Source: a virus
Length of the DNA: 25,131 bases
IMG/VR virus record: IMGVR_UViG_3300034101_000721
Coordinates: 1 to 25,131 of that record
Reading direction: 5' to 3' (one strand)
The notes beneath the pieces were generated by a model that was not told the DNA's origin, made no database searches, and saw only the letters and a list, made by a program, of their open reading frames with translations. Of the stretch, positions 22,559 to 25,131 are shown piece by piece. The stretch's first letter is position 1, and the number at the start of each line of letters is the position of its first letter. The position numbers and the translations under genes are program-made.

Positions 22559-22851
22559 AAACTGCTAGAGCGGTAGGAGCGATTCTTTTCGTCCGGTGAA
22601 TAGTTAGGGATTCTTTTGCGTATTTTAGCTACGGCATCCTCTCTATCTAGCAGCATAGAGCAGATATAAACTAGGTTATGTGGCCTGGGAATATCTTCAA
22701 AAAAGAAGTTATATAAGTCTAACTTGAAGAAGTCTGGCAACTCTTTTGCTGGGGAGCAGTAGTCTGCAATCGCTCTATCTATAACAGCCAGCCATAGCAA
22801 TACTTCTGGTAGCACTGGCGTGCTTACATATTCTGTTTGTAAATCACTCAT
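22555..22851 (-). CDS. Small phage protein of unknown function
   Basis: A 98-residue protein when started at the ATG at 22851, which forms an ATGA overlap with the upstream nuclease gene like its neighbours. An earlier in-frame start at 22875 would add eight residues. The sequence (EVLLWLAVIDRAIADYC, LPDFFKLDLYNFFFED, NLVYICSMLLDREDAVAKIR) is helical. It resembles a group of small phage proteins with a DxxWFF-type centre followed by a helix-turn-helix-like end, in which a DNA-binding or regulatory role has been suggested, but I cannot assign it firmly. It is the last gene of the leftward operon and ends inside the stop region of the convergent holin gene. Confidence 0.6.
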   Translation of the reverse strand: MSDLQTEYVSTPVLPEVLLWLAVIDRAIADYCSPAKELPDFFKLDLYNFFFEDIPRPHNLVYICSMLLDREDAVAKIRKRIPNYSPDEKNRSYRSSSF

Positions 22852-23180
22852 TCTGATTTCGTAGTCTTTTGACATTGGACTAAAGCTAAAAAGTCCTCCA
22901 GGTACATCGTTACAAGCCAGGGCCGGTTGTTCTTACGGTGGCATACTATTGGAGTTTTGTCACCGCAGTCTCTTGTAGCTTGGTCAATAGCCTTGTCTAC
23001 GTTGAGATTCTGAACCCGCTTACATTCGATGTGGTAATCGGCTAATTCGGTGCAAACTACATCTGAGTCGCCAGCCTTACCGCAGAACTGTTGAGTACGC
23101 CTAGCAGTAAAACCATGCTCCTTTAGCTTGTTGGCAAGCTCTCTTTCTCCTGCGGCGCCTTTAGCCCTTGAGTTCGTCAT
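22848..23180 (-). CDS. PD-(D/E)XK nuclease, Holliday-junction-resolvase-like
   Basis: A 110-residue protein starting MTNSRAKGAAGERELANKLK. The arrangement GERE (Glu12/Glu14), GDSDVV (Asp40), HIECKR (Glu52, Lys54) and the downstream helix with Gln67 gives the PD-(D/E)XK nuclease signature in the right order and spacing for small resolvase-like or restriction-like nucleases (Hjc/VRR-type). The role would be in phage DNA recombination or processing before packaging. A GTG at 23201 would extend the N-terminus by seven residues (MIRFITN) and overlap the upstream gene. I prefer the ATG at 23180 because the family usually begins close to the GERE helix, although no good Shine-Dalgarno is visible for either. 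Confidence 0.72.
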   Translation of the reverse strand: MTNSRAKGAAGERELANKLKEHGFTARRTQQFCGKAGDSDVVCTELADYHIECKRVQNLNVDKAIDQATRDCGDKTPIVCHRKNNRPWLVTMYLEDFLALVQCQKTTKSE

Positions 23181-23181
23181 A

Positions 23182-23787
23182 TTAGTAATAAATCTTATCA
23201 CTGTTAGCTACTGACCAGCGGTTACAATCCTCTGCTGACCAGATTGTATCGAGTGTAGCATATTCCTTTGTCGGTGCAGTCGGATTATTTCCGATAAAGA
23301 AAGCGTCTTTGAAAACGATTCTGTTGGTAGGCAAAGCTGCAACTTGTCCGTTATCAAGCAGAATGACGTGGGCACACTTGTTCTGGTCTGGCTGGAACAG
23401 GAAGGCAGATTCAGCGTCAGAATCAGGCAGCCAATCAATCGTAAACCAGTAAGTACCAGACACTTTAGTTTTGTCTTTGAGGATTGCGTCACATTGATAG
23501 CCTTTGAATATATCAAAGGTAGTTACTACGGGGCGGTAACTGAAACAATCCCATAGCTGAAGTAGGTCCAAAGAGTATTTAGAACAGTCGCCATCAATAG
23601 TGTCATGCCAAAGCCAATGCAGAGGGATATGACGAAAGTGAGCACCTGATTCAAGCAGCACGTGGAATTGTAGCGCTCTTGCTTTGTAGGATTGTATTGC
23701 AAATGCGTAACCATGTTCAAAACCTTCTTTACCGTTTAAGTTCTTGTTTTCTATCCAGACTTTTAAGGGCGGTATATCTGCGTTCAC
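23182..23787 (-). CDS. Conserved-type phage protein of unknown function (201 aa)
   Basis: A 201-residue protein starting with GTG at 23787 in a GTGA overlap with the upstream DUF551 gene, whose last codons supply the AAGGAGGAGG ribosome site. Notable segments are LLQLWDCFSYRPVVTTFDIF, YQCDAILKDKTKVSGTYWF, DQNKCAHVILLDNGQVAALP and TNRIVFKDAFFIGNN. The last two fit a small beta-barrel reading (RNA- or nucleic-acid-associated barrels have similar strand layout), but that is only an impression. Proteins of this appearance recur in phage genomes without assigned function. It has no signal peptide or membrane segment. Confidence 0.68.
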   Translation of the reverse strand: MNADIPPLKVWIENKNLNGKEGFEHGYAFAIQSYKARALQFHVLLESGAHFRHIPLHWLWHDTIDGDCSKYSLDLLQLWDCFSYRPVVTTFDIFKGYQCDAILKDKTKVSGTYWFTIDWLPDSDAESAFLFQPDQNKCAHVILLDNGQVAALPTNRIVFKDAFFIGNNPTAPTKEYATLDTIWSAEDCNRWSVANSDKIYY

Positions 23788-24032
23788 TTTTCCTCCTCCT
23801 TTGGCGGTTCAGGTAGCGGATTTAATTTCATCCAGTGGGTAAATTGGTCCAGAGCTAGTGTGGCATTTGGATTGTTGTAATCAATAACGCCAAGAGTCTC
23901 TAGCCCTTTGTCGCTGTAGCAATTAAGCAAGCCGCCCAATACAAATTCAGGACAAGCTGCATTTGTCAGCCACAATAAAACAATCCCATCGCTTATATCC
24001 GGCATACGCTCTTTTAAGCTAATCCAACTCAT
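23784..24032 (-). CDS. DUF551-type protein, array copy 1 (leftmost, divergent)
   Basis: An 82-residue protein with the two conserved edges of a DUF551 domain: MSWISLKERMPD at the start and FTHWMKLNPLPEPPKEEEK at the end. The core (residues 15-62) shows no resemblance to the other copies beyond aromatic and Gly spacing, and it has a small insertion (KLN) in the THWMPL motif. The DUF551 family is common in phages and prophages and has no known activity. Its start is the ATG in an ATGA overlap with copy 2, whose Lys-Glu-Glu codons (AAGGAGGAG) are its ribosome site. It is the last array member before an unrelated gene. Confidence 0.75.
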   Translation of the reverse strand: MSWISLKERMPDISDGIVLLWLTNAACPEFVLGGLLNCYSDKGLETLGVIDYNNPNATLALDQFTHWMKLNPLPEPPKEEEK

Positions 24033-24478
24033 TTCTCCTCCTTTGGCGGCTCAGGCAGCGGCATCCAATGGGTAATACCAGTCAACCTACAATCATTTGG
24101 TGAAAATTTAATGCTCCAATTCCATAACTCATATCCACCAGTACAAAATGGGGGAATGTCTCCTAAACCACCAGACCATGCTAGTATTTGCATATCCTGC
24201 TCCGGCAGCCTATCCTTCACGCTAATCCAACCATTCACATCCATTATTTTGCTCATGTCGAGAATATGCTCGCAAGTATCCGGCATCACCTTGTCGGCGT
24301 CAGCAAGCTGATCCTGTAACTCTTGTATTTTAGCCTCAGCCTCCTCTAGTGCTGCGTGTGCGTGTTCCTGTGCTGCTTTGTAGCCTTCATACCAAGCTAT
24401 GTTGATGTCGTTTTTGCTTATCTCTACGTTGTCAAACTTTTCGCCGTAATCGTATGCCAACTCTTCTGGTGATTTCAT
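24029..24478 (-). CDS. DUF551-type protein with helical N-terminal extension, array copy 2
   Basis: A 149-residue protein and the longest of the array. Residues 1-38 contain EELAYDYGEKFDNVEISKND followed by IAWYEGYKAAQ. Residues about 38-65 form a short coiled coil (ALEEAEAKIQELQDQLADAD). From about residue 81 comes the DUF551 domain, from GWISVKDRLPEQ to ITHWMPLPEPPKEEK. N-terminal WYEGYKAA helices are also known in front of DUF551 domains elsewhere. This may be the full-length form from which the shorter neighbours derive. The stop overlaps the next ATG (ATGA) and the end encodes AAAGGAGGAG as ribosome site. The cellular role is unknown. Confidence 0.78.
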   Translation of the reverse strand: MKSPEELAYDYGEKFDNVEISKNDINIAWYEGYKAAQEHAHAALEEAEAKIQELQDQLADADKVMPDTCEHILDMSKIMDVNGWISVKDRLPEQDMQILAWSGGLGDIPPFCTGGYELWNWSIKFSPNDCRLTGITHWMPLPEPPKEEK

Positions 24479-24714
24479 CCTTCCTCCTTCAGCGGCATCC
24501 AGTGAGTGATCTCATCAGACCAATCCGCATGTTCATAGGTGCACTTGGACACTTGTAACTGCGACGAGAGCCAGATGCCCGCAAAAACCCCATTATGAAC
24601 CTCAACTGCCCAAAAAGTACCAATATCCTTCCCAGCTAGTACAACCGCTCCTATCTCAGGCAGCCTATCTTTTACGCTAATCCACTCGCTTTTTACGCTA
24701 ATCCACTCGCTCAT
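24475..24714 (-). CDS. DUF551-type protein with duplicated start, array copy 3
   Basis: A 79-residue protein. The N-terminus reads MSEWISVKSEWISVKDRLPE: the conserved SEWISVK is present twice because of an exact 21-bp tandem duplication (24670-24711). The core (GAVVLAGKDIGTFWAVEVHN and on) differs from the other copies. The C-terminus is DEITHWMPLKEEG, lacking the PEPP of copies 2 and 4 but keeping Lys-Glu-Glu, whose codons supply GAAGGAGGAA for the next gene. It is joined to both neighbours by ATGA. The short C-terminus suggests a deletion of four codons that preserved the ribosome-site codons. Function unknown. Confidence 0.75.
   Translation of the reverse strand: MSEWISVKSEWISVKDRLPEIGAVVLAGKDIGTFWAVEVHNGVFAGIWLSSQLQVSKCTYEHADWSDEITHWMPLKEEG
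24670..24711 (-). repeat. Exact 21-bp tandem duplication
   Basis: On the plus strand the unit TTTTACGCTAATCCACTCGCT plus no spacer occurs at 24670-24690 and again at 24691-24711, perfect in both copies. It duplicates seven in-frame codons (SEWISVK) at the start of array copy 3. Identity of the copies points to a recent event. Confidence 0.95.
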
Positions 24715-24965
24715 TTCTCCTCCTTCGGCGGCTCAGGTAGCGGCATCCAATGGGTGACTTGATCCTTGTTGTAGTGTTTCCATCCACTGCACACACTAGG
24801 ATCTCCTGATGCAGTTTCAATAAAAACATATTCGCTAGTCCCGCATTTTATCCATGCTAATACATTAGTGTTTCGATTTGGCAACCGATCCTTAACGCTA
24901 ATCCATTGCGGCGCTGCTGCCTTGTAACCAGCGAGAAAAACATCTTTAGCGTGTGAGTTTGTCAT
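24711..24965 (-). CDS. DUF551-type protein, array copy 4
   Basis: An 84-residue protein: MTNSHAKDVFLAGYKAAAPQ, then WISVKDRLPNRNTNVLAWIK, a variable core, and DQVTHWMPLPEPPKEEK. The FLAGYKAA piece corresponds to WYEGYKAA of copy 2, so this copy looks like the same architecture with the coiled-coil linker missing. The first residues MTNSxAK also resemble the start of the nuclease gene (MTNSRAK), which may be coincidence. It has an ATGA junction with copies 3 and 5. The upstream ribosome site GAAGGAGGAA lies within the last codons of copy 5. It is probably cytoplasmic, since no signal or membrane segment is present. Confidence 0.77.
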   Translation of the reverse strand: MTNSHAKDVFLAGYKAAAPQWISVKDRLPNRNTNVLAWIKCGTSEYVFIETASGDPSVCSGWKHYNKDQVTHWMPLPEPPKEEK

Positions 24966-25131
24966 ACTTCCTCCTTCGGCCTATCAGGTAGCGGCATCCA
25001 GTGAGTGACGGTTTCAGTTCCACACCACAGTCCCAAATCCGTATGAAACCAAGGCTCGTTTTTACCTGCTGGTGGCAATCTATACCGTGTTACAATCGAC
25101 CGTTTTTCATTAGTTGCAAGCAAAACTCTCT
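24962..25131 (-). CDS. DUF551-type protein, array copy 5, N-terminus outside window
   Basis: The minus-strand frame is open from the window edge to a TGA at 24962-24964. The visible 55 residues end with YRLPPAGKNEPWFH, then CGTETVTHWMPLPDRPKEEV, clearly the C-terminal half of another DUF551 domain. The RLP at the domain start is present, but the WISVKD that normally precedes it is replaced by a different sequence (SIVTRY). The Lys-Glu-Glu codons again form GAAGGAGGAAG before the ATG of copy 4, with an ATGA junction. The array therefore continues, or begins, beyond the right edge. Confidence 0.75.
   Translation of the reverse strand, partial: RVLLATNEKRSIVTRYRLPPAGKNEPWFHTDLGLWCGTETVTHWMPLPDRPKEEV

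Follow-up and report, generated by a model that had tools for sequence, protein, structure and literature searches.

Ea22 V2 and YfdS of lambdoid phages possess the same DUF551 domain as the genes reported here, and in the part of the source available the domain is described as portable (PMC10834534); the same part describes no tandem array, core-swap seam or SD within the tail. In E. coli phage HK106, the DUF551 gene sits between the Erf recombinase and xis-int, and its SD-bearing tail overlaps the next ATG. The DUF551 consensus was found at 615 places in 608 records of isolate phages, about one per genome compared with five here, and the five-copy array is therefore unusual.

PeSLs are promoter/stem-loop units located between genes. 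In the PeSL cassettes of T4-type phages, a conserved expression signal next to accessory genes also serves as a shuffling site (Arbiol 2010 and Comeau 2014, as cited in PMC4503421); by contrast, the present array has its signal, an SD, within the coding sequence of the tail, and what is exchanged is only a portion of a gene. The locus may also resemble Rad52-like relaxed mosaicism, in which the mosaics are bordered by lower homology and a phage-encoded annealing protein of the RecT/Bet/Erf type takes part; however, the stretches involved have a median of 400–500 bp and occur anywhere in temperate phages (PMC3945230), whereas the array reuses the same short seams inside genes, in tandem. In the type I restriction specificity subunits (DOMO, PMC3077401), repeat-flanked variable recognition domains likewise move, duplicate and get lost at repeats, but these bacterial proteins are unrelated, are known to recognise DNA and have two domains each instead of forming a row of small genes. 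A further likeness is found in phage protein domain mosaicism, where fragment shuffling is still ongoing (PMC10684548); DUF551 and Ea22 are absent from that study, whose authors anticipate more mosaicism among accessory proteins and those of unknown function.

The window analysed here is a 25,131-bp IMG/VR virus record, the right end of which is formed by the array. Profile matches to PF04448 in all five copies bore out the DUF551 tandem array claimed in a preliminary description of this DNA: five genes lie on the minus strand at 23784–25131, of which four are complete and the last is truncated where the contig ends, and adjacent ORFs overlap by 4 nt. The genes of the array and its downstream neighbours are as follows.

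22848..23201 (-), PDDEXK nuclease, RusA/Hjc-like resolvase, downstream of the anchor gene; PF24608 2.8e-7
23182..23787 (-), conserved 201-aa gene used as syntenic anchor, downstream of the array; found at 71 IMG/VR loci with identities of up to 100%
23784..24032 (-), c1, DUF551 gene of 82 aa; PF04448 1.3e-8
24029..24478 (-), c2, DUF551 gene of 149 aa with N-module KSPEELAYDYGEKFD..GYKAAQEHAHAALEEAEAKIQELQDQLADADKVMPDTCEHILDMSKIMDVNG; PF04448 1.5e-9
24475..24714 (-), c3, DUF551 gene of 79 aa; PF04448 5.1e-9
24711..24965 (-), c4, DUF551 gene of 84 aa; PF04448 1.1e-15
24962..25131 (-), c5, DUF551 gene with its 5' end cut by the contig end (ORF 24962–25129); PF04448 0.0017

The copies c1–c4 score 34–58 bits against PF04448, above the curated cut-off of 22 bits, whereas c5 stays below it (19.1–19.6 bits) because it is truncated; its complete homologue in the record L139 reaches 63 bits with a DUF551 profile built in this work. 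A 5,044-bp near-identical contig (L139/L150) shares 2671 nt with the window, with 8 mismatches, and contains c5 in full (108 aa). Extension of the window to the right, as had been suggested, was made via this contig and gave five copies in total, with no sixth DUF551 copy in the next 2.2 kb beyond c5. The 8 mismatches to L150 all crowd into the final 67 nt of the window (25065–25131), which suggests that the population is variable here or that assembly of the array was difficult. An array mis-assembled from the reads of mixed phages would be in line with this crowding, taken as a sign of unstable assembly, and with a window that ends inside the array; it is nevertheless very improbable, as the same five-gene order is present in L139/L150, which stems from another metagenome record, and independent arrays with at least four DUF551 genes exist in L026/L140, L118, L088, L148/L149 and L175. 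The latter also show that the five-copy array is not unique.

Each gene has a head segment, WIS(V/L)K(D/E)R(L/M)P, and a tail segment, THWMPLPEPPKEE, both of which are repeated at the DNA level. The fixed edges claimed earlier were thus confirmed, with exceptions in three copies: the tail of c1 has a small insertion (THWMKLNPLPEPP), c2 possesses an additional N-terminal module of about 80 aa, and the tail of c3 is shortened to THWMPLKEEG. The head repeats span 30 nt and the tail repeat 46 nt, the latter being 96% identical between c2 and c4, and the longest exact repeats within the array are of 19 nt. The seams and a further repeat in c3 are located as follows.

23786..23831 (-), tail seam of c1, 46-nt repeat family D1, 67%
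23997..24026 (-), head seam of c1, 30-nt repeat family D2
24028..24073 (-), tail seam of c2, reference copy of D1
24200..24229 (-), head seam of c2, 30-nt repeat family D2
24475..24496 (-), shortened tail seam of c3, D4
24655..24684 (-), head seam of c3, 30-nt repeat family D2
24670..24711 (-), c3 head, 21-nt unit duplicated exactly in tandem (SEWISVKSEWISVKDRLP), D5
24710..24755 (-), tail seam of c4, D1, 96%
24876..24905 (-), head seam of c4, 30-nt repeat family D2
24961..25006 (-), tail seam of c5, D1, 76%

The conserved edges are partly a signature of the DUF551 family, to be expected in any member. Family-wide, W21, P29 and W73 are invariant and T-H-W-M-P-L-P is nearly so. Because many DUF551 loci were retrieved with patterns taken from the edges, the conservation of the edges is overstated; among the genes fetched with the anchor, WIS[VL] is present in 26 of 36 genes and [TS]HW in 26 of 36. 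The array might accordingly have arisen by tandem duplication and in-place divergence of the cores, the edges being conserved only as the structural signature of DUF551. The family-wide conservation agrees with such an origin, as do edges that are barely more alike within than between loci (head 0.67/0.65, tail 0.61/0.64), and the DNA-level tail repeats together with the 21-nt duplication in the c3 head, which is a recent local duplication, show that local duplication occurs. At the codon level, uncorrected for codon usage, edge identity is 0.47 within the array (0.56 in L139) versus 0.38 between loci, a difference that is given no weight here.

The same site was then compared among relatives by means of the anchor gene. 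Within 2 kb upstream of it, no DUF551 copy was found in 28 loci, one in 19, two in 11, four in one and five in one, loci with less than 2 kb of upstream sequence being excluded; among loci with an anchor at least 71% identical, the corresponding numbers are 5, 14, 5, 1 and 1. These counts rest on the DUF551 profile built here (E 0.01) and on the contig ends. The intervening genes are short ORFs that adjoin or overlap one another, and many of them start with M(S)KTPEE and end with KEEK or KDE, whether they encode DUF551 or not. An equal copy number with one-to-one orthologous cores in related genomes had been named as the outcome that would speak against active diversification; the opposite was seen, namely 0–5 copies and non-orthologous cores, with no one-to-one orthologue found in relatives at the syntenic site, which favours turnover of the array and counts against in-place divergence. 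Copy number and cores thus change while the flanking genes remain almost constant.

Several observations were made on the surrounding genes and records. In records of cyanophages and Pelagibacter phages, as in phrog_3704, the family of the 201-aa neighbour goes under the labels ferredoxin or PurM, neither of which is backed by a Pfam match; no relatives of this gene were found in bacterial genomes. A search of bacterial genomes for the tandem-junction pattern returned 12 stretches, none of which encodes DUF551 by profile. In L215, a short Gly/Ser-rich repetitive ORF lies in the accessory operon about 1285–1024 bases before the anchor. The portal gene of L155 (37,054 bp) is split over both contig ends, which suggests that this record is complete and circularly permuted, with a genome size of about 37 kb for the lineage. 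The portal homologues of L177 and L048 each contain one in-frame TGA that is read through, and the two records share it.

Clustering of cores and N-modules in a comparison set of 236 DUF551 genes revealed that 11 of the 19 multi-member core clusters stand behind at least two different N-modules, and that 8 of 17 multi-member N-modules carry at least two cores. The N-module of c2 is shared with other cores in L138, L151, L156, L157, L175 and L220; the c3 core recurs in L138 behind another N-module, the c4 core in L006, L007, L008, L104, L159 and L219, and the c5 core, at 99% identity, in L220 behind a c2-type N-module. Individual cores thus have relatives of 90–99% identity in other phages behind other N-modules. 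For the c4 core, DNA identity is 98% with L007 and 90% with L104, two records whose portal proteins are only 64% identical to that of the window. Two clean core swaps were identified: L148 and L010 are 97% identical on the N-side, 100% downstream and 32% in the core, and L210 and L206 are 93%, 100% and 26% identical, respectively. In both swaps, identity stops in WISVKDRLP and restarts in THWMPLP. These swaps and the shared cores largely refute duplication with in-place divergence, which is quite unlikely, and, with the chimeras, support the earlier proposal of a locus that diversifies or expands by recombination at fixed edges. GYKAA forms a second seam, since 7 of 9 clusters of variable part 1 (KTPEE to GYKAA) have different downstream modules; in L175, one variable part 1 is present twice with differing continuations. 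L158 (SKVM-PLPEPPKEEE), L165 (DVN-WQELPEPPKEES) and L174 resemble core deletions in which the tail is retained.

No crossover was seen within a core. No within-core chimeras were found, as 0 pairs are alike in one half and 71 are alike in both, and the single candidate at relaxed thresholds was a misplaced anchor. With crossovers spread evenly over head plus core, the probability that none of 11 falls in the core is ~7e-8. This lack could be due to selection against misfolded hybrids and not to the origin of the crossovers. Illegitimate recombination anywhere, with selection for hybrids at domain borders, would also yield no within-core chimeras, and the seams would then be a consequence, not a cause; the shortness of the exact inter-copy repeats, 19 nt or less, is compatible with it. 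However, the head DNA of chimeras is shared with both parents, with an identity of 0.83 to genes with the same N-module and 0.87 to those with the same core against a background of 0.65; crossovers in or beside the head follow from this, as expected when they occur in homology. The two-sided clean swaps, with seams exactly in register, also speak against illegitimate events.

The cores were tested for elevated nonsynonymous change, as had been suggested, and none was found. Among cores of one type, pN/pS is about 0.25, a value that again speaks against rapid in-place divergence; the variety thus comes from redistributed old cores and not from fast mutation. The cores are under purifying selection, and their diversity arises by exchange, not by hypermutation. 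In same-core pairs, synonymous divergence is 0.142 in cores versus 0.285 in edges, a comparison biased by the choice of pairs by core similarity and therefore not among the main evidence; the lower value in the cores fits edge exchange.

A RecT-family annealing protein (L157:2389–3150; PF03837 2.9e-29; phrog_252, Bet-like) is encoded upstream and in the same direction in relatives, and was found in all 11 lineage records searched, the contig of the window itself ending before that region. The homologue of the PDDEXK nuclease in L157 matches phrog_244 at 6e-23. Rad52-like phage recombinases exchange short, diverged stretches, and the minimal pairing segment of Red beta is 23–27 nt (PMC3945230); as the longest exact repeats of the array are shorter than this, better-matched phage partners or relaxed annealing would be needed. 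In seven of 11 array-bearing records of other phages, neither RecT nor Erf was seen, which would favour illegitimate recombination followed by selection; given RecT throughout the lineage and the evidence from the seams, we consider that explanation rather unlikely. A dedicated diversifier, either a diversity-generating retroelement or a site-specific inversion/integration system, is almost certainly not at work. Fixed edges around variable cores superficially resemble the targets of such systems, but neither reverse transcriptase (PF00078) nor tyrosine recombinase/integrase (PF00589) was found in 16 possibly incomplete records of arrays or relatives, and the cores are unrelated sequences, not point variants of one template.

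Besides being repeated, the tails carry a signal for translation. The motif AAGGAGG is present in all five tails just ahead of the next start codon, and this start overlaps the stop by 4 nt, at the following positions.

23795..23801 (-), AAGGAGG in the c1 tail, for the start of the 201-aa gene (GTG at 23787)
24037..24043 (-), AAGGAGG in the c2 tail, for the c1 start
24483..24489 (-), AAGGAGG in the c3 tail, for the c2 start
24719..24725 (-), AAGGAGG in the c4 tail, for the c3 start
24970..24976 (-), AAGGAGG in the c5 tail, for the c4 start

The conserved tail PPKEEK encodes AAGGAGG plus the ATGA overlap, that is, the predicted ribosome-binding site of the next gene. In the anchor group, the ATGA overlap is found in 24 of 40 DUF551 genes, and AAGGAGG occupies the SD position in 23 of the 36 with a near start. 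Codon usage shifts in the same direction: in genes with a near downstream start, the GAG fraction of E is 0.61 in tails versus 0.35 in bodies (p 4e-17) and the AAG fraction of K is 0.63 versus 0.38 (p 2e-12), whereas the shift is not significant in genes without a near start (p 0.17 and 1.0). The plain test for presence of an SD is weaker (93/183 with a near start versus 10/37 without, p 0.011). In HK106, the tail PPQEAK is encoded by CCGCCGCAGGAGGCGAAATGATG, in which AGGAGG is kept and the residues differ. That ATGA overlaps couple the translation of adjacent genes is generally known (PMC6728339); what appears particular here is that the coupling signal lies inside an exchanged, conserved protein tail. 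Since the tail carries both AAGGAGG and the ATGA overlap, a cassette that is inserted, deleted or swapped would still bring the translation initiation of its neighbour. The edge would thus serve at once as protein frame, recombination seam and translation joint, and the row could gain, lose and reshuffle genes while remaining expressed.

The AF2 model of c4 (pLDDT 78, pTM 0.66) consists of a short WISV strand, a core hairpin and a VTHWMP strand, and the model of c3 (pLDDT 74) has the same strand order. As far as the two modelled copies show, the single-family reading therefore holds, the models being built from nearly the same set of homologues and thus not fully independent. A fold search of c4 in BFVD returned mostly DUF551 proteins among the named top matches. 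Searches of the PDB by sequence and by fold gave nothing significant, and weak matches to CHAP and tudor (E about 1) were set aside. Within the core, the hydrophobic positions V35-L36 and W62 are kept, and most others are near random. The simplest reading of the DUF551 fold, as modelled, would be a fixed frame with a changeable surface. None of the Pfam hits of any copy is Ead_Ea22, c2 having its own N-module. PADLOC gave no match below E 0.01, its library comprising defence proteins and being apt to miss new counter-defence proteins. With no PADLOC match of weight and no relative in the PDB by sequence or fold, the arms-race or immunity-modulating role put forward in the preliminary description is only a guess. 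Host-directed binding may be the likeliest role, with somewhat less than even confidence, by analogy with the lambdoid Ea22/YfdS genes that lie in the corresponding region (PMC10834534, PMC4776307).

Taken together, the locus is probably a combinatorial cassette array, in which modules are exchanged at seams by homology and the tail carries the SD. It would belong to the early/recombination operon of a ~35–37-kb phage, with each gene readable as a string of modules: M(S)KTPEE, variable part 1, GYKAA, an optional helical linker, WISVKDRLP, a variable core and THWMPLPEPPKEEK. The chimeras and swaps show, by sequence comparison, that modules are exchanged between phages at short conserved segments. 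We infer that the exchange is driven by homology and performed by an annealing recombinase of the phage itself (RecT in this lineage and Erf in some others), a RusA/Hjc-like resolvase being encoded nearby. The most tentative steps are that DUF551 might be a small β scaffold with fixed first and last strands and the core as variable surface, and that the operon might produce small host-interacting proteins as a set coupled in translation. It is a speculative possibility that the locus is shaped for diversification, the triple job of the seams letting the recombinase build new rows from an environmental pool of cores as an anti-host repertoire, for example against defences.

Phage mosaicism, the portability of DUF551 and ATGA coupling are already known singly; their combination in one coding seam that recurs throughout an array has, to judge from the literature covered, not been described. 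HK106 has the same design of a tail with an SD, so that the idea is testable in a laboratory phage. As DUF551 is a widespread phage domain, the locus offers a testable setting with an exchangeable pool of cores and defined borders, and it would show how an operon stays expressible under gene shuffling, each exchanged end holding the translation start of the next gene.
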